A DNA stretch of 34,973 nucleotides from Bacteroidota bacterium. Its GTDB lineage: Bacteria > Bacteroidota > Bacteroidia > Palsa-948. Location: NCBI GenBank assembly GCA_016213405.1, contig JACRAM010000079.1:1-34973 (forward strand), in the 5' to 3' direction. The stretch's first letter is position 1, and every line of letters begins with the position of its first letter. The notes below the pieces were generated by a model that ran no database searches, was not told where the DNA came from, and saw only the letters and a list, made by a program, of their open reading frames with translations. This document shows, in pieces, positions 2,780-33,582 of the stretch. A program made the translations under genes and the position numbers.

Positions 2780-2832
2780 ATCTTTCCCCCTTGATGATGG
2801 GGCGACACAAAGTGCGGGGGATAGAATACAGA

Positions 2833-2927
2833 AGTTCCAAATTCCAAATTCCAAGGGAACAGCCGATGCCGGCTGCTTCTTGGGACTTGAGACTTGGAGC
2901 TTGAAACTTGAGACTTGTGACTTGGGC
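2833..2927. repeat. Heptamer inverted-array element, copy 2
   Basis: Left arm: three heptamers of the AATTCCA type (2833-2853). Right arm: seven heptamers all starting CTTG (2879-2927: CTTGGGA, CTTGAGA, CTTGGAG and so on). The arms are partly complementary around a GC-rich centre (GCCGATGCCGGC). The start, GATAGAATACAGAAG at about 2819, matches copy 1 with one difference. Confidence 0.85.
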
Positions 2928-2961
2928 GTTCCCTCGATGACTCGGGCGGGCTAGGAGTTTA

Positions 2962-2981
2962 TCCCGCCACTTTGGGCGGGA
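2962..2981. repeat. GC-rich hairpin in intergenic region
   Basis: TCCCGCC pairs with GGCGGGA across a six-base loop. It is not followed by a T-run, so it reads as part of a dispersed palindromic element rather than a terminator. The sequence from about 3001, TCATTCTGAGTGAAACGAAG, looks like another common intergenic repeat. No gene is visible in 2751-3092. Confidence 0.5.
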
Positions 2982-3069
2982 CTGCAATCTTTGGTGTTTG
3001 TCATTCTGAGTGAAACGAAGAATCTATTTCGCCAAAGGATTTCCGCTGCTATCCCTAACGCAAAAAAAT

Positions 3070-3077
3070 TACATTTG
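3070..3077 (+). promoter_or_regulatory. -7 promoter element of the TPR/SpoIIE gene
   Basis: TACATTTG is an exact TAnnTTTG match, 15 bases before ATG 3093. It supports ATG 3093 as the ancestral start codon of the gene whose reading frame is now interrupted. Confidence 0.55.
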
Positions 3078-3134
3078 TGTTCCGCTATCCCCATGAAAAA
3101 TCTTTTTCAAATATTCTTTTTCTTTTTTTCTTAA

Positions 3135-3190
3135 TTCGATTGTTCGTTATTTGATGTTCCTTATTCCCCTATACCTTATACCTTATACCT
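3135..3190. repeat. 7-bp tandem repeat in the signal-peptide region
   Basis: The last three units are perfect TATACCT copies (3170-3190). Five degenerate heptamers precede them in phase (TTCGATT, GTTCGTT, ATTTGAT, GTTCCTT, ATTCCCC). The tract lies between the probable original start at 3093 and the mature N-terminus LAQQNKID. Confidence 0.8.
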
Positions 3191-3193
3191 CTC

Positions 3194-5272
3194 TTGCTCA
3201 GCAAAACAAAATCGACTCTCTCACAAAAGTTATCTCGTCCCTCGTCTCTCGTCTCTCGTCCCTCGTCCCTTGCTGTTGATACCTCCCGCGTAAACACCCT
3301 CAACTCCCTCGCATGGCTTCTTCAGCACAGCGAGCCCGGCAAAGGAATTGATTATGCGGAACAGGCATTGAAACTTGCAACGCAACTTAATTTCAAATCC
3401 GGAATTGCAAATGCCTTTCATGCGCTCGGTTCGATAAAAGCGAATGTGGGCGACTATGACAAAGCGCTCGATTATTTTGCAAAAGATTTATCCATCTCAA
3501 CAGAGCTTGGCGATAAACAAGGAATGGGAACTTCGCTGAACAGCATCGGCAACATTCACGCACAGCGTGGTGATTATGACAAGGCGCTTGATTTTTATTT
3601 CAGGTCAGTGGCGATAAAAGAAGAACTCGGAGATAAGAAAGGGCTGGCTTCCGCCTATGGAAACGTGGGCAACATCCATTTTCTCAAAGGAGATAACGAC
3701 AAGGCGCTGGAGTTTTATCTGAAGGACTTAAAGCTGTTTCAGGAACTCGGAAGTAAAAAAGGAATGGCAGATTCTTACAATAACATGGGTCTCGTTTACG
3801 CGCAGAAGCGTGATTTTTCCAAAGCGCTCGAATATTATTTTAAGGATTTGGAAATCACAAAAGAGCTTGGCGATAAACAGGGCGAAGCCGATTCTTACGG
3901 GAACATTGGAATTATATCAGTGGAACAAGGCGATTTCAATAAAGCGCTGGTGTATTACCTGAAGTCGTTTGACATTCGAAAAGAACTAGGAGACAAACAG
4001 GGAATGTCTGATTCATACAACAGCATTGGGAGTTTGTACCTGAAACAAAATCGTTTGAAGGATGCAAAAGAATATCAGCTGAAGTCGCTTGGCTTAGCAA
4101 AAGAGATAAACGCCAAGCCCGCCATGATGAGCGCGTATATTGCTCTTTCTGTCTGCGATTCCGCTATGGAAAACTTCAAAGAAGCATACCAGTATCACAA
4201 ATTGTATTCTCAGATAAAAGACAGTGTGTTCAACGAAGAAAGCAATTTGCAGATGACCGAAATGCAAACGAGGTATGAAACAGAGAAAAAACAAAAAGAA
4301 ATCGAACTTCTTAATAAAGAAAAAGAAAACCAGGAAGCGCTCACTGCTTCAGAAAGCAAACGGCAAAAAATAATTTTATTGTTTGTGTTTTGCGGATTAG
4401 TTGTTTCGCTTGTCTTTGCATTCATTCTTTTCAGGGGATATAAGCAAAAACAAAAAATCAATATCGCGCTGGAAGAAAAAAATAAAATCATTGAAGAAAA
4501 AAACAAAGACATAACCGCCAGCATTAACTATGCACGAAGAATCCAGACGGCTATGCTGGTTGACAGGGAGGAAATTGCCACACAGCTTAATGATTTTTTC
4601 ATTCTTTACAAACCCAAAGATATTGTGAGCGGAGATTTTTATTATTACGCGGAAGCAAAGAATAAAATCATCATCGGGGCGGTGGATTGCACCGGGCATG
4701 GAGTGCCCGGAGCTTTCATGAGCATGATAGGAAATGACGCGCTCAATGAAATTATTAAGGGAAAAGAAATATCTACCCCTTCAGAAATCCTGCGCAAACT
4801 TCACGACAGTGTGCGGACTGCTCTTAAGCAGGATTCTTCATCTAAAACCGATACGAAAGACGGAATGGACTTAGCTCTTTGCGCACTTGATTTGCAAACC
4901 AACACACTTGAATTTGCCGGAGCATTCAGGAATCTGTTTATTACAAGAAGTGCAACCAAAACCATGGAAGAAATAAAAGCCGATAAGCAATCCATTGGCG
5001 GAGAAAAGTCAGACGAGCAGAAGACTTTCACTAATCATACCATCCAATTAAATAAAGGTGATGCCTTTTATATTTTTACAGACGGCTATACCGACCAGTT
5101 CGGTGGCGACCATGGTAAAAAATTCATGGTGAAGCGAATGATGGATTTGATCCTTTCTGTTCAGGATAAAAATATGCGCGAGCAGGAAATGATTTTTGAC
5201 TGTACCCTTGAAGAATGGAAAAACAAACGTGAACAGGTAGACGATATTCTGCTCATTGGTGTTCGTGTATAA
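3194..5272 (+). CDS. TPR sensor with SpoIIE/PP2C phosphatase domain, N-terminus out of frame
   Basis: About seven tetratricopeptide repeats (residues 45-330, recurring GDYDKAL-type helices) precede a coiled coil, one transmembrane helix (about 393-415), a second coiled coil and a SpoIIE/PP2C serine phosphatase domain (466-692) with IVSGDFYYY and GAVDCTGHGVPGAFMSM. This is a common Bacteroidota architecture: an exported TPR sensor signalling to a cytoplasmic phosphatase, probably in a partner-switching pathway. The frame has only TTG 3194 near its start. The natural signal peptide is in other frames: MKNLFQIFFFFF from ATG 3093, and IPYTSLAQQNKIDSLTK from ATG 3154, reaching a stop just after the 3235-3269 repeats. 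Removing one 7-bp unit would join it to this frame. Either pseudogenised, phase-variable or a sequencing error. Confidence 0.85.
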   Translation: MLSKTKSTLSQKLSRPSSLVSRPSSLAVDTSRVNTLNSLAWLLQHSEPGKGIDYAEQALKLATQLNFKSGIANAFHALGSIKANVGDYDKALDYFAKDLSISTELGDKQGMGTSLNSIGNIHAQRGDYDKALDFYFRSVAIKEELGDKKGLASAYGNVGNIHFLKGDNDKALEFYLKDLKLFQELGSKKGMADSYNNMGLVYAQKRDFSKALEYYFKDLEITKELGDKQGEADSYGNIGIISVEQGDFNKALVYYLKSFDIRKELGDKQGMSDSYNSIGSLYLKQNRLKDAKEYQLKSLGLAKEINAKPAMMSAYIALSVCDSAMENFKEAYQYHKLYSQIKDSVFNEESNLQMTEMQTRYETEKKQKEIELLNKEKENQEALTASESKRQKIILLFVFCGLVVSLVFAFILFRGYKQKQKINIALEEKNKIIEEKNKDITASINYARRIQTAMLVDREEIATQLNDFFILYKPKDIVSGDFYYYAEAKNKIIIGAVDCTGHGVPGAFMSMIGNDALNEIIKGKEISTPSEILRKLHDSVRTALKQDSSSKTDTKDGMDLALCALDLQTNTLEFAGAFRNLFITRSATKTMEEIKADKQSIGGEKSDEQKTFTNHTIQLNKGDAFYIFTDGYTDQFGGDHGKKFMVKRMMDLILSVQDKNMREQEMIFDCTLEEWKNKREQVDDILLIGVRV
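3235..3269. repeat. 7-bp tandem repeat inside coding sequence (TCGTCCC), 5 units
   Basis: Five heptamers: TCGTCCC, TCGTCTC, TCGTCTC, TCGTCCC, TCGTCCC. Because seven is not a multiple of three, each gain or loss of a unit changes the reading frame. With four units the exported N-terminus (LAQQNKIDSLTK) is continuous with the TPR frame; with the five seen here it is not. Confidence 0.9.
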
Positions 5273-5275
5273 ATA

Positions 5276-5308
5276 AAAACCCCCTTTGAGTTTTTCAAAA
5301 GGGGTTTC
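5276..5308. terminator. Bidirectional terminator between convergent genes
   Basis: AAACCCCCTTTGA pairs with TCAAAAGGGGTTT around a short T-rich loop. It lies three bases after the phosphatase stop codon and 18 bases beyond the end of the opposing PepSY-like gene, so it can serve both. Tracts of A and T on either side are short. Confidence 0.8.
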
Positions 5309-5325
5309 TGAGTAAAAGATATTAT

Positions 5326-5787
5326 TTATTTCTTCTCATCCTTTTCGTCATCATCATCTTTCTGCTCAACTACTTTCTTCATGAAGGTTCCGTTTGCATC
5401 AAAGATCAAATCGCCAGCTTTTACTTCTGCTTCGTAAGTAGTTGTATTTTCTGAGTCAACAATTTTTGATGCCTCTTTGATTTTTTCTCCTGCATAATTT
5501 TTTGAAACATAGTCAGAAACTCCTTTTGGCAGAGCCGAAATATCAATTTCAGTTTCTGTCTCCAACAGGTTTCCGCTTGCGTCAAACAAGCAGGAAGTTT
5601 CTACTTTGTTCACATCGAATTCTGCTTCGTAGTTGGCATCTTCTTTTCCCCATTTCACTTTTGTTACGTTGGGATAAAGTTTGGCAAAACTTGCTTTTAC
5701 TGCAGCGGGAGCATCATCACCGCTAAAAGCAAATGCAGATACTGAGAAGATTCCGAGTAGAATTGCTGCTAAGATTAGTTTTTTCAT
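5326..5787 (-). CDS. Periplasmic PepSY-like protein
   Basis: A 153-residue protein starting MKKLILAAILLGIFSVSAFA, a clear signal peptide cleaved near residue 20. The mature part holds two PepSY-like repeats: VKASFAKLYPNVTKVKWGKEDANYEAEF, followed by conversion of a FDASGNLLETETEI hairpin, and later VSKNYAGEKIKEASKI with TTYEAEVKAGDLIFDANG. This is the PepSY-like (DUF2874) family of Bacteroidota periplasmic proteins. The tail is strongly acidic and basic (QKDDDDEKDEKK). ATG 5787 was preferred over an upstream ATG at 5829 because the signal peptide begins there. It lies 84 bases downstream of a two-component system in the same direction, with its own -7-like element; PepSY-like proteins are often targets of such systems, but that is inference. 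Confidence 0.88.
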   Translation of the reverse strand: MKKLILAAILLGIFSVSAFAFSGDDAPAAVKASFAKLYPNVTKVKWGKEDANYEAEFDVNKVETSCLFDASGNLLETETEIDISALPKGVSDYVSKNYAGEKIKEASKIVDSENTTTYEAEVKAGDLIFDANGTFMKKVVEQKDDDDEKDEKK

Positions 5788-5833
5788 TGTGATTTTGTTT
5801 TTTAGTGTTTGTGTTAGTTTGTTTTTCATAATA

Positions 5834-5841
5834 CAAAGGTG
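5834..5841 (-). promoter_or_regulatory. -7-like promoter element of the PepSY-like gene
   Basis: Minus-strand CACCTTTG followed by TA; one mismatch to TAnnTTTG. The same ten bases (CACCTTTGTA) occur upstream of ssb at 34320. Confidence 0.45.
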
Positions 5842-5871
5842 CGGTATGATTCTGAAGACATTTTGGATTTT

Positions 5872-7131
5872 TCAGAAAGAAACAGAAACAGTATGCATTC
5901 CCGCTGCATAGGAATAGTTTATTTTATAATGATACGTGTCGCAGATTTGTTTTACGATAGAAAGCCCAAGTCCGACAGATTCTGATGATGAAGTTCCCTT
6001 TTGAAATCGTTCAAACAGTTTTTCGCCCGGAATGTCAAGCGGGTTTCCTGAATTGGAAACAGTGAGCGTATTACTTTTTAGGTCAATGATTGTTTTTCCT
6101 CCATGGATGTTGTGCTTGATGGCATTTCCGATAATGTTTGAAATCAAAATGTCAGCTAACTGAGCGTTCATCTTAAGTGCAACTCCCTTTCTTTCGGATA
6201 GGGCAGGGAAGAGGTGAAGATGCTTGAACGCAATCATGTCTTCAAACTGCTCCAGTTTTTTCTCTATAATATTTTTCAAATCAATTTGCTGTTCTTCCTG
6301 GAACTGGCGGTTCTCAATTTTTGCAAGGAGCAGAAGTGATTGATTAAGTTTAGACAATCGGTTGGTGCTTTCGTATACATCCTGAATCATCTTCATTTGT
6401 TCCTGAGGGATGTTTTCTGACTGTATCATCAGTTCGAGTTTAGCTCGGATGATGGCAAGCGGTGTTTGAATTTCGTGAGAAGCATTTTCGGTGAACTCCT
6501 TCAGATTCCGGTAGTCGCTTTGCATTTTTTCTGTCATCTTTTTTATTTCTTCGTTCAGCATTTTGAATTCTGAAATGGTGGTTGGCGAAAAGTTCAGCGT
6601 TTCCTTTTTTCCCAGATCAAATTTTCTCAGTCCGTCAAGTGTTTTGTAAAATGGTTTCCACATTTCTTTTGAAAGCCACCAGTTGAGCAGGAATAAAACA
6701 ATCAGCAGTATCCCCGCTACGATGCCTAATGAGTTTGCCACGCTTTCAATCAGGTCGTCCGATTCAACAATGGGTTTTCCTGCTATGGCGGTGAAGAGTC
6801 CTTCATTCGTTTTTACAGAAAATATAAGTTCGCGGTAGGGTAATTCTTCTTCTTCGTATGAACTGTAAAAAAATGTATCTCTTAGTTCATCTTTCACCGT
6901 AATATCTGCCGGGGTGAAGAGGAGCAACTCGCTTCCGACAGAAGGTTGGGCAGGCAGCACTCCGTTTTTTCTTACATAGTCAAGCACTTGTTGCTGCGTT
7001 TGTTCCAGATTTTCAGAAATATTTTCATCAATGATAGTGCGAAGAGAGAAATAAAATATGATTCCGCCAATGGTAAAGAGGAGCAATGTCATAGAGAGAT
7101 AGAGGATGGTTGTTTTGGTGAGCAACTTCAT
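5872..7131 (-). CDS. Membrane sensor histidine kinase
   Basis: A 419-residue kinase. Transmembrane helices lie at about 8-30 and 133-153, enclosing a periplasmic sensor region of roughly 100 residues. A linker resembling HAMP follows, then HisKA with the phosphorylated histidine in FTENASHEIQTPLA (about residue 220) and an HATPase_c domain with the N box NIIGNAIKHN, a shortened G1 region (VSNSGNPLDI) and G2 GLGLSIVKQ. It should phosphorylate the response regulator encoded just upstream, with which it overlaps by four bases (ATGA), so the pair is co-translated. The acidic YSSYEEEELPY stretch in the sensor region could bind cations, though this is inference. Confidence 0.95.
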   Translation of the reverse strand: MKLLTKTTILYLSMTLLLFTIGGIIFYFSLRTIIDENISENLEQTQQQVLDYVRKNGVLPAQPSVGSELLLFTPADITVKDELRDTFFYSSYEEEELPYRELIFSVKTNEGLFTAIAGKPIVESDDLIESVANSLGIVAGILLIVLFLLNWWLSKEMWKPFYKTLDGLRKFDLGKKETLNFSPTTISEFKMLNEEIKKMTEKMQSDYRNLKEFTENASHEIQTPLAIIRAKLELMIQSENIPQEQMKMIQDVYESTNRLSKLNQSLLLLAKIENRQFQEEQQIDLKNIIEKKLEQFEDMIAFKHLHLFPALSERKGVALKMNAQLADILISNIIGNAIKHNIHGGKTIIDLKSNTLTVSNSGNPLDIPGEKLFERFQKGTSSSESVGLGLSIVKQICDTYHYKINYSYAAGMHTVSVSF

Positions 7132-7805
7132 TGCGCGGAAAATTTGTATCCCATTCCGTAAACTGATTTAATGTAATCATCTCCTCCGGCATCTGTTATT
7201 TTTTTGCGGAGGTTTTTTATGTGCGAGTAAATGAAGTCAAATGAATCTGCCATGTCCATTTCGTCTCCCCAGATGTGTTCGGCAATGGATTCTTTGGTCA
7301 CTACTCTGTTTTTGTTGGAGAGGAAGAACAAAAGCAGGTCAAATTCTTTTTTGGTGAGTGTTGTTATTTTTCCATTCACAAAAACTTCCTGCTTATCGGG
7401 AATGATTTTCAGTTTTTCAAAAACTATTTCATTGCTTCCTTCAAAGTTTCTCCTTCGGAGAACGGAATTGAGGCGGGAGTTGAGTTCTGCCAGATGAAAG
7501 GGTTTGGTGATATAGTCATCTGCGCCTAAATCCAACCCGACAATTTTATCATCAAGAGAGTTTTTAGCCGAGATGATGATGATACCTGTTTTGGAATTGT
7601 TCTTCTTTAAGGTTTTCACAATGTCAAGTCCGCTTCCGCCCGGCAGACCGATGTCAATGAGTGCGCAATCGTATTTATACAGGGAGACTTTTTCATCGCC
7701 TGAGGAGAAATTTTTCACCCATTCGCAAACGTGCCCTTCCTTTTTCAGAAAAGCAAGAACCGATTCGCCAAGTGCGGTTTCGTCTTCTACCAATAATATC
7801 TTCAC
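7128..7805 (-). CDS. OmpR/PhoB-family response regulator
   Basis: A 225-residue regulator. The receiver domain starts VKILLVEDETALGES and carries the acidic pair ED, the phospho-acceptor aspartate in CALIDIGLPG (about residue 50), a conserved Ser in IIIISAK and the Lys in YITKPF. A winged-helix effector follows (EFDLLLFFLSNKNRVVTKESIAEHIWG, then the wing VYGMGYKF). GTG 7805 is chosen because the receiver begins exactly there; the open frame runs further upstream through unconserved sequence. A -7-like TATCTTTA lies only four bases before it. It is the partner of the overlapping kinase and a likely regulator of the PepSY-like gene downstream. Confidence 0.95.
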   Translation of the reverse strand: MKILLVEDETALGESVLAFLKKEGHVCEWVKNFSSGDEKVSLYKYDCALIDIGLPGGSGLDIVKTLKKNNSKTGIIIISAKNSLDDKIVGLDLGADDYITKPFHLAELNSRLNSVLRRRNFEGSNEIVFEKLKIIPDKQEVFVNGKITTLTKKEFDLLLFFLSNKNRVVTKESIAEHIWGDEMDMADSFDFIYSHIKNLRKKITDAGGDDYIKSVYGMGYKFSAQ

Positions 7806-7939
7806 GCAGTAAAGATAAAGAAATGATTCTGGAGGGATTTTGGAGGTTATTTTGTTTGGGATGGGTTGCCCCTTTTTTCCCCTCTCCCTTTGTTGAGCTA
7901 CGCTCACAACCTACGGTTGTCCCAAAGTGGAGGGAATGT

Positions 7940-8191
7940 TTTCGAAATAGAATATTTATGTTTCGATTGAAAGTATTGATGTTTTGATGGAAGATATTAT
8001 GTTTTCGATAGAGAATATTGGCTTTGAGATTGTGAATTGGAGCGTTCAGATTAGGAATTGGAGCGTTCAGATTAGGAATTGGAGCGTTCAGATTGGGAAT
8101 TGGAGCGTTGGGATTGTAAATTGGAGCGTTGGGATTGTGAATATTGCCTTTCCGATTACGAATATTGGCTTTCCGATCACCGTTTGGCGCG
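7940..8191. repeat. 21-bp repeat array, 12 units
   Basis: Twelve consecutive 21-base units with no net indel. The central units are nearly identical (TTCAGATTAGGAATTGGAGCG at 8045 and 8066); the outer ones are degenerate but keep the GATT...AATATTGG pattern. Such a gradient, freshest in the middle, is typical of arrays growing by internal duplication. The unit has little in common with the 21-bp unit at 548-736. Confidence 0.92.
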
Positions 8192-8202
8192 GTGTTTGTT
8201 AA
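7987..8202 (+). CDS. Possible heptapeptide-repeat protein encoded by a 21-bp array
   Basis: A 71-residue open frame from ATG 7987 made of heptapeptides such as NWSVQIR, NWSVGIV, NIGFPIT. Residues 2, 4 and 6 of each heptad are hydrophobic (I/W, V/F, I), an alternating pattern expected of beta strands, for example in a solenoid. The frame is free of stops from 7951. It ends 31 bases before the next gene. No homologue is recognised and there is no signal peptide. The alternation of hydrophobic residues argues for coding, but this could also be an accident of the repeat. Confidence 0.35.
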   Translation: MEDIMFSIENIGFEIVNWSVQIRNWSVQIRNWSVQIGNWSVGIVNWSVGIVNIAFPITNIGFPITVWRGVC

Positions 8203-8233
8203 TGTTCTATCCTAATCAAAAAAACTATTGAAC

Positions 8234-9244
8234 ATGGCACTTACAGAACCTCGTCCGAAACCGGAATATAGCTGCACGCAGCAGGAACTTTATCAGATTT
8301 GTTTGCTGATATGGTTTTCTTATCTTGAAAATGTGGCTGACTTTGCAGCTGAGAACACGAATTATGATGTGGCTTTTGGGAATGCGAACATCGCTGCTGT
8401 GAAGGCGGCAAAGGCGATGCCTGATTTTCAACAGCGGGATGAGGCGAGTGAAACGCTCGGGGTTGAGTTGAAGGAGGGGGCTGATGAGTGCCTTATCAAA
8501 TGGCAGAGTTTGGAGGGGTATATTAAAAAGGGTTTTAAGGAAAAACTTTGGAAGACGAAATTGGAGGGCGCGGGCAGTACGCATTATGAGAAGGCGGGTG
8601 AGAATAATTGGGAGGAAGTAAGTGCGCTGATGGAGGCGGGGAAAAAATTTATTGCAGATAATGGGGCTACGTTGACGAGCCCGGGTGGAATGCCTTCGGG
8701 ATTTGCGGGGGCAACGGGTTTGTTTGAAACAGCGAGGACTACTTTTGATGGTTTGTTTGAGCAGTTTAAGGATGCGCAGCAGGATAATGAGGAGCAGGGG
8801 GATGCGAAGGTGAAGGCGAACAATGCTTTGGATAAGGCGGTGGCTTTGCTGGATGAGGATGGTCAGAAAATTTATAGGAAGAATGGGGCGAAGCGTGAGC
8901 GTTTTACTTTTTCGAGTGTGAAGGAATTGGTGAGTGGTGCGGGTGCGAGTACGAAGACGGTTGTGATTGCTGCGGGGACGAGTGAAACGGTGACGGGCGT
9001 GAGGGCTAATTCTCCGATTACGAATATTTCTGAAACTGCGGTGCGTGTGTGTTCGGGGAGCAGTCCTTGTGCTGTGCCTCCACCTGTACCTCCTTTGCCT
9101 GCTACGCGTGCTACGAATGTGGTTTTGAATCCGGATGATGTGATTGCGAATACGTTTGGTTCAACGATTACGTTTACGAATGGGGATGGGGTGAATGGGG
9201 ATGGGGTGAATGGGGCGGAGGTGACGGTGCGGGTGACGAGTTAG
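8234..9244 (+). CDS. Helical plus beta-sandwich protein of unknown function
   Basis: A 336-residue protein with no signal peptide. Residues 1-230 are largely helical and charged (KEGADECLIKWQSLEGYIKK; DAKVKANNALDKAVALLDED). Residues about 240-336 look like a beta-rich domain (TKTVVIAAGTSETVTGV, then STITFTNGDGVNG), separated by a proline-rich linker PPPVPPLPA. The family is not recognised. Start ATG 8234 is chosen over a TTG two codons upstream. Codon use is unusual: most third positions are G (GCG, GTG, ACG, GGG), and the coding strand is strongly G-rich, unlike the neighbours. A 15-bp repeat near the end encodes NGDGV twice. It follows a 21-bp array, as does the gene at 835. Confidence 0.75.
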   Translation: MALTEPRPKPEYSCTQQELYQICLLIWFSYLENVADFAAENTNYDVAFGNANIAAVKAAKAMPDFQQRDEASETLGVELKEGADECLIKWQSLEGYIKKGFKEKLWKTKLEGAGSTHYEKAGENNWEEVSALMEAGKKFIADNGATLTSPGGMPSGFAGATGLFETARTTFDGLFEQFKDAQQDNEEQGDAKVKANNALDKAVALLDEDGQKIYRKNGAKRERFTFSSVKELVSGAGASTKTVVIAAGTSETVTGVRANSPITNISETAVRVCSGSSPCAVPPPVPPLPATRATNVVLNPDDVIANTFGSTITFTNGDGVNGDGVNGAEVTVRVTS

Positions 9245-9359: not shown

Positions 9360-11306
9360 TTACTGAATGATAATTTTTTCAGTAAATAGATTTTCTTTGC
9401 TTATTATTTTTATGAAGTAGATACCTTTTGATTTATCGGATAAATCAATTGTTAATTGTTGATTGACTATTGATGATTGATATACTTTTTCTCCGAGGGG
9501 GTTGTAGATTTCTAAATGGTAGTTAACATCTCCTAATTCATCTTGCTCTGGGATTTGAATGGTGAATTTGCCGTTAGATGGATTTGGGGCAATTGATGCG
9601 TTAATAATTCGTGTTGAATCAATAATATTATCATTCTCGTATTCATCTTCATACTCATATTCTGTCTCTCCATCCATTGTTCTCATAGGAGTACAAGGGG
9701 TTGGGGGCGGTATAGAAACAACAGCATTAGGTTCAATACTGAATATTGAATTAGGCGTAACAGCGACAATATCACCTGCCTGAAAAGTGAAATCAGCACC
9801 TGATTTTACAACTAAACCAGGGCATGTTGGACTGCTGAGTGTAATAATTGTTGAAGACCTTAACACTATTGAATTATTTGGTTGATAATTGCCTGCTGGC
9901 CAATAGTCTCCACATAAATCAGTAAGAGAAAAATAACAATATACTTCTCCACCGGGAATTCCTATGGTCGCTCCACTAACAGGATTTAAGGTCTGTCTGA
10001 CGCTTTGTTTTGCAAGCCAGAAATTTCTAAACTTACCATAGAAATCAGGTCCGGTAATAGTGCATCCAGAAGATCCACCTGATAATGCACCAATTACTCT
10101 CTGGTTAAAATTATAAAATGGTGAACCAGAAGATCCCTTCTCAGTTACACCATTTGTCCAAAAAACTCTATAGCGTGTAGCAAAATTACCTACGGTCAGG
10201 AAATTTGCACGGGATATTTTTTTGTCATCACCTTTCGGATGATGAATACCATAATATTGGGCTTGAAAAGGTATTTGAACTGACGTAGACCAGCCGGAAT
10301 AATAAACATTAAAGTGAGGTGGTGGTTTTGCATTCATCTTCAACAATGCTTGATCCAATACATAACTATCAGCAATAAATTGAGCACCTTGTACAGGATG
10401 TTCATAATGATAACAAATGGAAGGGGGAGCACTACAATTGGGACGAGAGTAGTTAAAAAAGAAAGTAAGAGAAGTTAAATCCATTAAAGCACCACCTCCA
10501 GTACTACCTTCATGTATGCAATGATTAGCTGTATAAAAAACAGGGTCAAGGAAATTTTTATTAGAATGTGTTTGATTTAACAATGTACCCGTACATTGAC
10601 CTTCTTCCCCAATCATCATGAATACTGATCTTACAAGTTTATCCTGCACGCCAGAAGGAACAGAATATGGAATACAATAAACTTCATCATTGCATGATAA
10701 TGCATCATTTCCAAAAAAACATCCAAATCCTTGAGGATTTGTAGGTTCAATTGTCTTTATATTTTCCATAGGGTTAATAAATCCATATGTAATGCTTTCA
10801 ATTAAAAGAATAGATAAGTTATTAATTGAATCTGGTTGAAAGTAAACTAATGTAATAAAATCAGAGGGCAATAAGCTCCAAAAATATTTACCATGTTGCT
10901 GATTATTATATTCTGTTAATGGATTGTCTATTAAATCATGTTGTTCATTGTAAGCATATAAAACCGCACCATTTATTAAAGAAAAATTTTTAAACTTCAC
11001 ACCAATAGTATTTGCTCCAGAAGATTTTATTTTCAAACAAAATAATTTTCCATTGTTTGGTACATTAAAAAAAGTAGCAACATTGAAAAAATTAATTTCA
11101 ATCGGTATTTTGACGCCATATCTATAGGTTTTATAATTTTTTATAGAATCAAAATCAATGTTAGGGGCAGGAACAGTAATGGTATTAATAGTGTTCCAAT
11201 TACTATCCAATGTATTATATATTTCAGAATTAATTGTTGGTTGTCCGTATAAGTGAATTATAAAGCAATTAATTATACTAAAAAATGAGATGATTTTCTT
11301 TTTCAT
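9360..11306 (-). CDS. Secreted trypsin-like serine endopeptidase with T9SS sorting domain
   Basis: A 648-residue exported protease. A signal peptide (1-21, ending LYG-Q) precedes a propeptide-like region (22-200) and a lysyl-endopeptidase-type S1 domain (about 205-440). The catalytic triad is visible: His262 in YTANHCIHEG, Asp318 in SYVLDQALLKM, and Ser393 in TEKGSSGSPF. Numerous cysteines suggest disulfides. A linker with an acidic run (YEYEDEYEND) leads to a type A T9SS sorting domain (572-648: SIAPNPSNGKFTIQI ... GIYFIKI). It should cleave proteins on the cell surface or outside. Last of four tightly spaced genes, 12 bases after the preceding one. The AT-rich composition is shared with the two genes upstream. 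Confidence 0.93.
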   Translation of the reverse strand: MKKKIISFFSIINCFIIHLYGQPTINSEIYNTLDSNWNTINTITVPAPNIDFDSIKNYKTYRYGVKIPIEINFFNVATFFNVPNNGKLFCLKIKSSGANTIGVKFKNFSLINGAVLYAYNEQHDLIDNPLTEYNNQQHGKYFWSLLPSDFITLVYFQPDSINNLSILLIESITYGFINPMENIKTIEPTNPQGFGCFFGNDALSCNDEVYCIPYSVPSGVQDKLVRSVFMMIGEEGQCTGTLLNQTHSNKNFLDPVFYTANHCIHEGSTGGGALMDLTSLTFFFNYSRPNCSAPPSICYHYEHPVQGAQFIADSYVLDQALLKMNAKPPPHFNVYYSGWSTSVQIPFQAQYYGIHHPKGDDKKISRANFLTVGNFATRYRVFWTNGVTEKGSSGSPFYNFNQRVIGALSGGSSGCTITGPDFYGKFRNFWLAKQSVRQTLNPVSGATIGIPGGEVYCYFSLTDLCGDYWPAGNYQPNNSIVLRSSTIITLSSPTCPGLVVKSGADFTFQAGDIVAVTPNSIFSIEPNAVVSIPPPTPCTPMRTMDGETEYEYEDEYENDNIIDSTRIINASIAPNPSNGKFTIQIPEQDELGDVNYHLEIYNPLGEKVYQSSIVNQQLTIDLSDKSKGIYFIKIISKENLFTEKIIIQ

Positions 11307-29763: not shown

Positions 29764-31149
29764 TTACTTATGCACCTTCCTGATAAACTCCTCCACTTCC
29801 GGCACACCGCCTTGCAAAACTAAATAGCCGTTGTAAGGTTCGCGCTCGGTAATATCTGAACAGATTGGATTCAGCATCATCTTTTTTACTTCCGCAGGGT
29901 CTTCAGTTTGCCCGAGCACCCATCCTAATTTTATGTAAGCGGTTTCAGGTAACATGTTTCCCAGCGGCACCACTCCTTTTGCCATCATATCGCGCCCGGT
30001 ATCGTAAACAAACATGTGCACATATCCCCAGATAGTCTGCACCACCATAAAAACAGAAACGCCTTCTTCTTTTGCTTTTACAATTGCCGGATAAAGTTCT
30101 TTGTTCACATGCCCTAATCCAGTGCCCACGATAACAATTCCTTTATATCCCGCATCAATCATGGCAAACATCACATCGGGTTTCATGCCGGGATAATAAT
30201 ACAACATCGTTGCTTTTTCGCTGAAGAAAGGATAGAGTTCAACATTTTTATCTTTTCTGCGATGATGATATTCATTCTTTATTGGGATAATATTTTTTCG
30301 CGTAACTCTTGCCACAGGCGTATCGCCAATGGTTCTGAACGTGGAACGATAGGAAGAATGCATTTTACGTACACGTGTTCCTCTGTGAAGCAATCCGTAT
30401 TCATCCGAAGTGGGACCAAACATGCACACCAGAACTTCCGCGATATCAGACGTGCCCGCGGTGAACATGGCGTGCATGAGATTCAGCGCAGCGTCAGAAC
30501 TCGGACGGTCGGATGAACGTTGAGAGCCAACTAAAATAATAGGCACGGGAGAATTTTGCACCATGTACGTAAGCACTGCAGCAGTGTGTTGTAAGGTATC
30601 GGTGCCGTGACCGATCACTATTCCGTCAATTCCGTTTCTGATTTCTTTTACGATGGCGTGAGCAAGCGCTACATATTGTTTCGGTCCCATGTTTTCGCTG
30701 AACACGGCAAAAATCTTTTCTGTATCAAGATTGCAGATGTCGGCAAGTTCAGGAACTGCACCGTACAATTCTCCGGGAGAAAATGCGGGAATGACCGCGC
30801 CCGTTCTGTAATCAAGCCGCGAAGCAATAGTTCCTCCCGTTCCGAAAAGTTTTACGTGAGGCAATCCTTTGGTAACCGGAAATTGTTTTTCCGGAATCTG
30901 GTAGTTTGCTTTTTTATATCCTGTTTCGCGAATGTCCGTAATCGTGTTTATATCTACACCGATGTTGTATCCCGTAATAATTTTCAGAACGATATGTTCA
31001 TCATCTGTATTCTCCGCTCGCGGAAGAATGGTTCCCTGAAAAAGTCCGCGTGTGGAATCAACATCCACTGCCGCCCAAACCCGTGCATTGTATTTCTTCA
31101 ACACTTCTAATGCCTGTCCTTTATATCCCTGAAAAATAGTTGAACTCAT
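29764..31149 (-). CDS. gatD: Glutamyl-tRNA(Gln) amidotransferase subunit D (archaeal type)
   Basis: A 461-residue GatD. Residues 15-80 are the small N-terminal barrel found in GatD but not in plain asparaginases (NARVWAAVDVDSTRGLFQGT). The asparaginase-like domain follows with the catalytic set: Thr107 in FGTGGTIASRLDY, Thr183 and Asp184 in GHGTDTLQHTAAVL, and Lys261 in RVRKMHSS. GatD releases ammonia from glutamine or asparagine and passes it to GatE, which converts Glu-tRNA(Gln) to Gln-tRNA(Gln). Its partner gene gatE lies upstream in the same direction, separated by a four-helix-bundle gene. GatDE is regarded as an archaeal enzyme, so its presence beside Bacteroidota genes is notable. Confidence 0.92.
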   Translation of the reverse strand: MSSTIFQGYKGQALEVLKKYNARVWAAVDVDSTRGLFQGTILPRAENTDDEHIVLKIITGYNIGVDINTITDIRETGYKKANYQIPEKQFPVTKGLPHVKLFGTGGTIASRLDYRTGAVIPAFSPGELYGAVPELADICNLDTEKIFAVFSENMGPKQYVALAHAIVKEIRNGIDGIVIGHGTDTLQHTAAVLTYMVQNSPVPIILVGSQRSSDRPSSDAALNLMHAMFTAGTSDIAEVLVCMFGPTSDEYGLLHRGTRVRKMHSSYRSTFRTIGDTPVARVTRKNIIPIKNEYHHRRKDKNVELYPFFSEKATMLYYYPGMKPDVMFAMIDAGYKGIVIVGTGLGHVNKELYPAIVKAKEEGVSVFMVVQTIWGYVHMFVYDTGRDMMAKGVVPLGNMLPETAYIKLGWVLGQTEDPAEVKKMMLNPICSDITEREPYNGYLVLQGGVPEVEEFIRKVHK

Positions 31150-31153
31150 AAGT

Positions 31154-31188
31154 CGGTTATCGGTTATCGGTAAGTGGTAATCGGTTAC
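31154..31188. repeat. 7-bp tandem repeat (CGGTTAT), 5 units
   Basis: CGGTTAT twice, then CGGTAAG, TGGTAAT and CGGTTAC. It covers the last ten codons of the four-helix-bundle gene (NRLPLTDNR) and the gap to gatD. The opposite side of that gene is bordered by heptamers of complementary sense (GATTACC; 31586-31634). Confidence 0.9.
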
Positions 31189-31555
31189 AAAAAGTATCTG
31201 CTTTATTAATCATAGCGTTTAGCATTTTTCCCACAGAAGAGCAGTGACTTAACAGGTCTTTTGCAGCTTCCATGGAAATATAGGAACAATCTAATGCTGT
31301 TTCAATCCAGTGTTGTGTTTCCAATTGTTCTCCATCAGCATCGGTTAACTTACTTACAAAATGTTTTTCATATTTTCTTTTCGCCCATGCCTCAGCAATT
31401 TGCGCTCCAACTGACCGTGATGACCTTCTTATTTGGTCTGTAAGAGAATACATTTCTTCTTTGGGAAACTTTTTTGAAACCTCAAAGATTTCTCCGGACA
31501 ATTGTCTCGATAGTTTATATACTTCTAACTCTCTAAAACTTTTTACATATTCCAT
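31157..31555 (-). CDS. Four-helix-bundle protein (S23/IVP family)
   Basis: A 132-residue protein of the four-helix-bundle family named after proteins encoded in 23S rRNA intervening sequences. The conserved words are FRELEVYKLSRQLSGEIF, YSLTDQIRRSSRSVGAQIAEAW and LETQHWIETALD. Such genes are very common in Bacteroidota, often as isolated insertions; function unknown. Here it sits between gatE and gatD in the same direction. Its last nine residues are encoded by a 7-bp repeat. A start ATG at 31555 fits the family (MEYVKSFRELEVY). Confidence 0.92.
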   Translation of the reverse strand: MEYVKSFRELEVYKLSRQLSGEIFEVSKKFPKEEMYSLTDQIRRSSRSVGAQIAEAWAKRKYEKHFVSKLTDADGEQLETQHWIETALDCSYISMEAAKDLLSHCSSVGKMLNAMINKADTFCNRLPLTDNR

Positions 31556-31585
31556 GTTATACTTTTTTTAATTGTTATCATTTAT

Positions 31586-31634
31586 GTTTACCGTTTACCT
31601 GTTACCGTTTACTGATTACCGATTACTGATACAT
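31586..31634. repeat. 7-bp tandem repeat (GTTTACC/GATTACC), 7 units
   Basis: In-phase heptamers GTTTACC, GTTTACC, TGTTACC, GTTTACT, GATTACC, GATTACT, GATACAT. The array begins in the gap after gatE and runs into its last eight codons, so that the C-terminal VSVIGNQ of GatE is repeat-encoded. Confidence 0.9.
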
Positions 31635-33582
31635 TCAGTTCAGCGAGATTCATATTTCCTAAAGCGGTTTTACTTATCTGTCCCATAATCCAGCTTGAAT
31701 CCACATCTGTTTTCTTTGACAGTTTGATTTTTTTAAACTTTTCTTTCAGGAAAGGAATAGTTTCGGTTAGTTCTTTTTTAGAGCAATGCTTGTAGTGAAT
31801 GTTCGTGAGAACAGAATCAAAATCCAGTTTCGGGTGCTGATAATATTCAACCAGCATTTTTCCGGCAATGTTTAATTCCATTTTTTTATCCTTCAGAAAT
31901 TTAAACAGGTCGAATATTTTTTCATAGCTGAATTCGTCTGTGCTGTCATAATTATTTTCTACAAATTTCATCGTATGCCCTAAGAAAGTTCCGGTAAAGC
32001 GCGGACTTATTTTCAGTTCATCATTTATTTTTTCGATAAGAGGCATAAGATTTTTCTTCAGGATAAATGTAAAAACACCCTGCGGAACTTTCCATGCATT
32101 CAACTGCTGAATGCGGTCAAAAATATCAATCGGAATTTGTTTGCGGATGGCTTCAATGTTTTCATCTTTCAAAGGAATGGGAGCGGAATCGGTATCGGGA
32201 TACATGCGGTCGGCACCGGGCAGCACGCGCTCAAAAATGGTTGTTCCTCCATCCGTCAACGCTTTTCTTGTTTCGTTAGGAATACAATTAAAAGCCATGC
32301 GGCATCTTTCTTCCACCGTCTCAATAGCCGTGGGAATATCTTCTTTGGGTCCCCATAAAACAATCCACGCATCTTCATTTTTACAGGAAAGAAGTTTTGA
32401 AATCTTTTCCGCTTCCTCATCCGAAATATTTTTTTGCAACTCTTCCGAATGAATCATGTTGGGCTTTTCAATGCACGCAATTACTTTCAGCCGCGTTGAA
32501 ATTTCATCGGCAAATAGTTGCTTCGGTTGCGTGAAGTGAGAAAGTATTCCTTTGAATCCCGGCAAATGAATGGCAATTAGCAGCCCCCCTTTGTCCCCCC
32601 GAAGGGGGGAAATTTGCGCGTGTGGGAATTCATCCGCGTTTAACTTCACCGAATTCATTTTCCATTTCTTCTCATCCCCGACTTTCTCCTTTAATAATTT
32701 AATGATATGAACCAGCGCCCATTGTCTGAAACATTCATTGTGGGTGAGCTCAGGCATCCATTTCGTATGCGCAACACCTTTTATTTCCACACGAGTGCCG
32801 CCTTTGCAACTCACGTTTACATCCGCTCTGGTTGAACCAATTCCGGTTCTCACTTTCGCTGTGCTGCGGTTAAGAAAACGAATATAATCAGCCGCTTCTT
32901 TTACCTCATCCGGATTTTTGAATTCGGCTTGAGTTACGGTTTCAATGAGTGGCATTCCCAATCTATCGGTTTTGTAAATCCGCGAATGCCCCACATCAGA
33001 AATCTCACGGCAGGAATCTTCTTCAATACTTAGCTGTATAAGATTGATTATTTTATTTTTCAGCTGAATCTTTCCGCCCACGCCAATGATAGCGGTGCGC
33101 TGAAACCCCGCGGGAATGCTGCCGTCAAGATATTGCTTGCGTGTGATGTGCACTTCGCCTACCACATTCATTTTATTTAGAATTGAAATCTCCAGAGCAA
33201 TATCAAGCGCAACGGGGTCTATCGGAAACGGGGGAGTGTCATCCACTTCATAGGTACAGGCAGTTTCATTTTTAATCCGGTAAGTAATATTTTTCCGGGT
33301 TTTAAATTCCATCAACGCAGTGCCGTCATACTCGCCCAGTTCGCTCAGCGTTGGGCGCATGTGCCTCACTATTTCAGCGTCAAAATCATTGTGTGAATTA
33401 AATTTGCCTGCGGGGCAGCGGCAAAAAAGTTTTCGGGCTGTCAATAACTGCTGGTGAACTTCCAGTCCCGACATAAATCCTATGCGGTCGTAGTCCGCCT
33501 GAGTGGCTTCTTTTCGGGATACATATCCAATTGCCTTTTTGCTCTGCTCGTAATTCTGCTCAGGGTCAAATGACTGGCTCAT
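31609..33582 (-). CDS. gatE: Glutamyl-tRNA(Gln) amidotransferase subunit E (archaeal type)
   Basis: A 657-residue GatE, a little longer than usual archaeal proteins. The N-terminal catalytic cradle shared with GatB has GFMSGLEVHQQLLT, the zinc-binding-like LFCRCP, AGFQRTAIIG and VSCKGGTRVEIKGVAH. An AspRS-like GAD insertion follows (about 290-410), which distinguishes GatE from GatB, containing the conserved LPGFKGIL; then GADRMYPDTDSAPI and a helical/YqeY-like tail (SSWIMGQISKTALGN). It phosphorylates and amidates Glu-tRNA(Gln) with ammonia supplied by GatD. Two oddities: residues 324-335 (ISPLRGDKGGLL) are encoded by an intergenic palindromic element, and the last residues by 7-bp repeats. 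Confidence 0.93.
   Translation of the reverse strand: MSQSFDPEQNYEQSKKAIGYVSRKEATQADYDRIGFMSGLEVHQQLLTARKLFCRCPAGKFNSHNDFDAEIVRHMRPTLSELGEYDGTALMEFKTRKNITYRIKNETACTYEVDDTPPFPIDPVALDIALEISILNKMNVVGEVHITRKQYLDGSIPAGFQRTAIIGVGGKIQLKNKIINLIQLSIEEDSCREISDVGHSRIYKTDRLGMPLIETVTQAEFKNPDEVKEAADYIRFLNRSTAKVRTGIGSTRADVNVSCKGGTRVEIKGVAHTKWMPELTHNECFRQWALVHIIKLLKEKVGDEKKWKMNSVKLNADEFPHAQISPLRGDKGGLLIAIHLPGFKGILSHFTQPKQLFADEISTRLKVIACIEKPNMIHSEELQKNISDEEAEKISKLLSCKNEDAWIVLWGPKEDIPTAIETVEERCRMAFNCIPNETRKALTDGGTTIFERVLPGADRMYPDTDSAPIPLKDENIEAIRKQIPIDIFDRIQQLNAWKVPQGVFTFILKKNLMPLIEKINDELKISPRFTGTFLGHTMKFVENNYDSTDEFSYEKIFDLFKFLKDKKMELNIAGKMLVEYYQHPKLDFDSVLTNIHYKHCSKKELTETIPFLKEKFKKIKLSKKTDVDSSWIMGQISKTALGNMNLAELNVSVIGNQ
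32582..32614. repeat. Palindromic element embedded in gatE
   Basis: AGCCCCCCTTTGT followed by CCCCCC-GAA-GGGGGG-AAATT, with a 6-bp perfect stem. Almost the same sequence follows ssb at 34779-34809. Read on the minus strand it encodes ISPLRGDKGGLL within GatE without disturbing the frame. Confidence 0.9.

Follow-up and report, generated by a model that had tools for sequence, protein, structure and literature searches.

The 34,973-nucleotide stretch of DNA analysed here (hereafter, the window), which is one entire contig of a 3.65-Mb Bacteroidota assembly (95% complete), carries the genes gatE and gatD, which, judging from their sequences, probably encode the 2 subunits of a functional Glu-tRNAGln amidotransferase, a heterodimer that belongs to a distinct bacterial clade, acts alongside GlnRS, and is fed by a relaxed GluRS. 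The GatDE enzyme family itself is known; what is new is a bacterial branch found together with GlnRS and U1-A72 tRNAGln. According to a 2022 review, GatDE is restricted to archaea, and the failure of archaea to acquire GlnRS is put down to the co-adaptation of GatDE and archaeal tRNAGln (PMC9499178). A full-text literature search, with subscription papers mostly beyond its reach, returned no account of bacterial GatDE. Genes of this kind will already be named as such by automatic annotation.

Both genes lie on the minus strand, in the order gatE, a gene for a 132-aa protein, and gatD (Table 1). The sequence-only reading had described an archaeal-type GatDE in a Bacteroidota genome, and this description holds on curated cut-offs and conserved catalytic residues. 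GatD scored 492 bits with PRK04183 (cut-off 310) and 489 bits with TIGR02153 (324), whereas GatE scored 385 bits with TIGR00134 (320) and 459.5 bits with PRK04028 (456), the cut-offs being those of the curated NCBI GatD and GatE models, families that NCBI names archaeal. GatD comprises the GatD_N domain (PF18195) and both asparaginase domains (PF00710 and PF17763). In the Protein Data Bank, the 2 proteins best matched their counterparts from Pyrococcus abyssi and Methanothermobacter. A plain asparaginase and GatB were both rejected as identities: GatB models and other asparaginase models scored much lower on these proteins than the GatE and GatD models did, and the better matches to ordinary asparaginase or GatB that would have undone the initial identification were not seen. 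As expected, the score of GatD is also above the cut-off of the broad model for type I asparaginases, enzymes with which it shares the catalytic core; unlike type I L-asparaginases, it has the GatD N-terminal domain, far exceeds the GatD cut-offs, and is paired with gatE.

Table 1. Genes of the gatE-gatD locus in the window.
Feature	Coordinates	Strand	Description
gatE	31609-33582	-	657 aa; GatB/GatE catalytic cradle, GAD-type insertion, helical tRNA-binding tail
23S rRNA intervening-sequence-type (IVP-type) four-helix protein gene	31157-31555	-	132 aa; PF05635, 112 bits
gatD	29764-31149	-	461 aa; GatD N-terminal domain and type I asparaginase-like glutaminase domain

The architecture proposed for GatE, a GatB-like cradle with a GAD insertion, is likewise upheld by the 2 family models and by a full-length profile match. 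As a single sequence, GatE matches only up to residue 568; a profile of 10 GatE members aligns residues 30-653 with residues 2-615 of Methanothermobacter GatE (2d6f), that is, end to end and with the tail included, suggesting that the tail is present though diverged. The GAD-type insertion has no Pfam match of its own, and it is assigned from the full-length matches to GatE. AlphaFold modelled GatE poorly overall (mean pLDDT 51.8), with a mostly confident prediction only in the tail after approximately residue 490, and the fold matches of the model (top: 1zq1 and 2d6f) were left out of the evidence owing to this low confidence. The catalytic residues T107, T183, D184, and K262 of GatD are invariant in 36 GatD sequences; the first 3 had been assigned correctly from the sequence, but the lysine had been placed at position 261. 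In GatE, the cradle residues E41, H43, E187, and E214 (Mth 13, 15, 157, and 184), which we take to have a metal or active-site role, are invariant in bacterial GatE, archaeal GatE, and GatB. The dN/dS ratios in comparisons with congeners, which are approximate, synonymous sites being near saturation in several pairs, were 0.04-0.06 for GatE and 0.01-0.05 for GatD, ranges matching the value of 0.04 obtained for GlnRS. Thus, purifying selection acts strongly on both subunits, to much the same degree as on GlnRS.

Within an even draw of 395 genomes across the phylum, GatE exceeded the cut-off in 30, namely the window genome and 29 of the 394 others, all 29 of which are outside its class. The GatE-positive genomes span several families and include finished single-contig genomes. 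In nearly all carriers, gatD comes after gatE, and this unit is kept while the surrounding genes vary across the phylum; the gene neighbors of GatDE (PhoH, aldehyde dehydrogenase, transposase, acyl-CoA dehydrogenase, and the like) offered no functional hint. The exception to the pairing is contig L026 (positions 5001-8574), where gatE is followed by a phosphoglucose isomerase gene, with no gatD downstream. GatDE is also encoded by L030, a record labelled Aminicenantes.

In the GatE tree, rooted with GatB, the bacterial sequences form one clade (98% UFBoot) apart from 3 archaeal sequences, and in the GatD tree bacterial sequences form one clade (100% UFBoot) apart from 2 archaeal ones; an archaeal sample of 2 or 3 sequences is too small to speak for or against descent of the bacterial clade from archaea. 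Bacterial GatD and GatE are not nested inside a single archaeal genus, as contamination had been expected to show, and of the 2 origins that the sequence-only reading had considered, the one favored by these clades and by the many families they cover is a little-noticed bacterial lineage. The bacterial branch to which the window GatDE is assigned is thus both old and widespread. A genome from a different class, L073 (G192), falls in the Bacteroidia-type branch, suggesting that the unit probably moved within the phylum. No archaeal GatE turned up among viral contigs, and a plasmid scan recovered a single damaged haloarchaeal GatE: a GatE-like stretch split over 2 frames on the Natrinema thermotolerans megaplasmid CP031304.1 (L139, positions 2781-4862), with no annotated gene, probably a pseudogene of gatE.

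The question of which other routes to Gln-tRNA coexist with GatDE, raised by the sequence-only reading, was answered by a search of the window genome (G000). GatB and amidase-family proteins, and hence GatA, were not found there, the GatCAB-bearing controls being positive, and GatDE is thus its only amidotransferase. GlnRS is intact (747 bits over the full model), as are AsnRS (610 bits) and a single GluRS, and AspRS is present; the absence of GlnRS, a trait of archaeal hosts rather than of the enzyme, does not extend to this genome. A PF00152 search of the same genome recovered only AspRS and AsnRS; no class II LysRS, apparently present in congeners, was found, probably because of an assembly gap. 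Across 38 GatE-positive genomes, with GatB as the marker for GatCAB, we found GlnRS, GatB, and GatDE together in 19, GlnRS and GatDE in 14, GatB and GatDE in 4, and GatDE alone in 1 (G433), so that 33 of the 38 encode GlnRS and 37 encode GlnRS and/or GatCAB, bearing in mind that absences in draft assemblies, notably G286 and G430, may be gaps. G433, the unusually large (10.4 Mb) genome of the Aminicenantes-labelled record L030, has a divergent GluRS and no tRNAGln among the tRNAs retrieved, and GatDE is the sole route to Gln-tRNA found in it. The genus of the window genome uses 3 routes, namely GatCAB without GlnRS (G003 and G006), GlnRS alone (G001), and GlnRS with GatDE (G000, G004, and G005), and constitutes a natural experiment on the joint evolution of amidotransferase and GluRS specificity. 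Surveys that count just GatCAB and GlnRS misjudge the Gln-tRNA routes in parts of the Bacteroidota.

An intact GlnRS under constraint makes GatDE dispensable for Gln-tRNAGln formation, which counts against the explanation we prefer. The operon might accordingly be a selfish or idle passenger, or might have been recruited to a task other than tRNA amidation (e.g., asparaginase activity), with little role in translation. GlnRS would suffice, with GatCAB as well in half of the 38 genomes, G001 lives without GatDE, and the cassette sits in unrelated gene neighborhoods and has apparently moved within the phylum. We nevertheless regard this as unlikely, given the strong purifying selection on both GatE and GatD, the retention of all tRNA-amidating residues and of the tRNA-binding tail, and the maintenance of gatE and gatD as a pair.

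The sequence-only reading had also asked whether the organism has a non-discriminating GluRS, and the GluRS of the window genome does carry a residue of the relaxed type. In Thermus GluRS, Arg358 helps to exclude tRNAGln; mutating this residue relaxed the Thermus enzyme and was without effect in Helicobacter pylori GluRS1 (PMC3927822). The equivalent position is Lys in the 3 congeners with GlnRS and GatDE (G000, G004, and G005) and in the 2 with GatCAB only (G003 and G006), and Arg in all 10 GlnRS-only genomes examined, including G001. Class-wide, 9 of 20 genomes that have an amidotransferase carry Lys here, compared with 0 of 10 that lack one (p = 0.013, the related genomes not being independent). 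Counting against the GluRS link, most GatDE-positive genomes outside the lineage and class of the window genome keep Arg at this position. In GluRS, GlnRS, and AsnRS comparisons, G001 pairs with the GatDE-positive G005, although support is weak for the order in which G000, G004, and the G001/G005 pair branch. The GluRS anticodon-binding domain carries 37 G001-specific and 9 G005-specific changes, compared with 11 and 12, respectively, in the catalytic domain (p = 0.011), a contrast that represents a single event; within residues 323-360, the counts are 17 and 0. Thus, the GluRS of G001 changed fast only in its anticodon-binding domain. The simplest reading is that loss of GatDE would have closed the outlet for Glu-tRNAGln, resulting in selection for a stricter GluRS in G001. 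Taken together, the Lys at the Arg358 position and the G001 contrast suggest a non-discriminating GluRS supplying Glu-tRNAGln.

The tRNA itself differs from that of the archaeal system. Archaeal GatDE has been described as reading the A1-U72 pair of tRNAGln (PMC9499178), whereas all tRNAGln recovered from GatDE-positive genomes have U1-A72 and none has A1-U72, including the one tRNAGln(UUG) recovered from the window genome. The A1-U72 pair is a trait of the host tRNA and not of the enzyme, and its replacement in every recovered tRNAGln implies that bacterial GatE would either read U1-A72 or be independent of that pair. At 5 cradle positions (T116, Y151, P157, D196, and V216), the residue of GatB is shared by all or nearly all bacterial GatE but not by archaeal GatE; no position displays the reverse pattern, with archaeal GatE resembling GatB and bacterial GatE not. 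These GatB-like residues fit a shift to the tRNA type read by GatB, although they may be retained ancestral states. The bacterial enzyme otherwise resembles archaeal GatDE (Methanothermobacter 2D6F and P. abyssi 1ZQ1) in its 2 subunits, domain order, catalytic residues, and full-length match with the tail, and departs from it in being only 31%-33% identical in GatE, in forming its own clade, in coexisting with GlnRS, and in the tRNA and cradle features just described. With bacterial GatCAB it shares the predicted reaction, the cradle and tail common to GatB and GatE, and the availability of U1-A72 tRNA; unlike in GatCAB, the ammonia producer is the asparaginase-like GatD rather than an amidase-like GatA.

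In the mechanism we propose, a GluRS with relaxed anticodon discrimination would supply mischarged Glu-tRNAGln, GatD would free ammonia from an amide donor, and GatE would activate the glutamyl group of the misacylated tRNA, leading to its amidation to Gln-tRNAGln; beside GlnRS in one cell, GatDE could provide either a second route to Gln-tRNAGln or repair of Glu-tRNAGln, its tRNA reading having presumably shifted from the archaeal A1-U72 to the bacterial U1-A72. The most specific version, in which an ancient bacterial GatDE reads U1-A72 and repairs the Glu-tRNAGln made by a relaxed GluRS beside GlnRS, with gain and loss of GatDE driving change in the GluRS anticodon-binding domain, is one that we advance tentatively, as somewhat short of an even chance. 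If true, cooperation between GatDE and GlnRS contradicts the view that the 2 are mutually exclusive. A constrained bacterial GatDE found with GlnRS and U1-A72 tRNAGln already contradicts, as general rules, the statements that GatDE is an archaeal hallmark and that it excludes GlnRS, and it alters the presence/absence data underlying models of the entry of glutamine into the code.

A different substrate, less probable still than a passenger operon, would be Asp-tRNAAsn, with GatDE making asparagine on the tRNA, a role ascribed to GatCAB in some bacteria with both GlnRS and AsnRS. Gln-tRNAGln is already covered by GlnRS, the tRNAAsn of the window genome also has U1-A72, the pair read by bacterial GatCAB, and bacteria of the Bdellovibrio type retain GatCAB together with the 2 synthetases, probably to make asparagine (PMC4206432). 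However, GatDE has been described as a Glu-tRNAGln enzyme (PMC9499178), AsnRS is present in the window genome and lacking in only 3 of 42 genomes examined, and the covariation was found with GluRS, the synthetase in which it was sought.

Finally, an origin of the locus by archaeal contamination or chimeric assembly, a concern prompted by an archaeal-type enzyme in a fragmented metagenome assembly and voiced in the sequence-only reading, is hardly credible, considering that the estimated contamination of the genome is 0.09%, gatD and gatE are in line with the remainder of the window in GC and third-position GC content, the same operon is found in independently assembled relatives, namely the congeneric species G004 and G005 (2 MAGs) with GatE 83%-86% identical and other named Bacteroidota records with GatE 61%-80% identical, some of these Bacteroidota contigs placing it next to T9SS genes, and single-contig genomes of the phylum carry it as well. 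The locus is not contamination, and its composition is native.

The IVP-type gene between gatE and gatD (Table 1) had been overlooked in the initial inspection. It is absent from the same position in L024, L027, and L031, and in the window (positions 31154-31610) it lies between short, oppositely oriented repeats (GGTAA/CGGTAAACGGTAA and TTACCGATAACCGATAACCG) that are rich in GGTAA/TTACC. Flanked by repeats and absent in the relatives checked, it looks like a recent mobile insertion and is probably no part of the GatDE enzyme. The last residues of GatE (VIGNQ) are apparently read from the repeat. A second case of insertion in the operon is seen in L157, where an ankyrin-repeat gene (positions 9483-10355) separates gatE from gatD.
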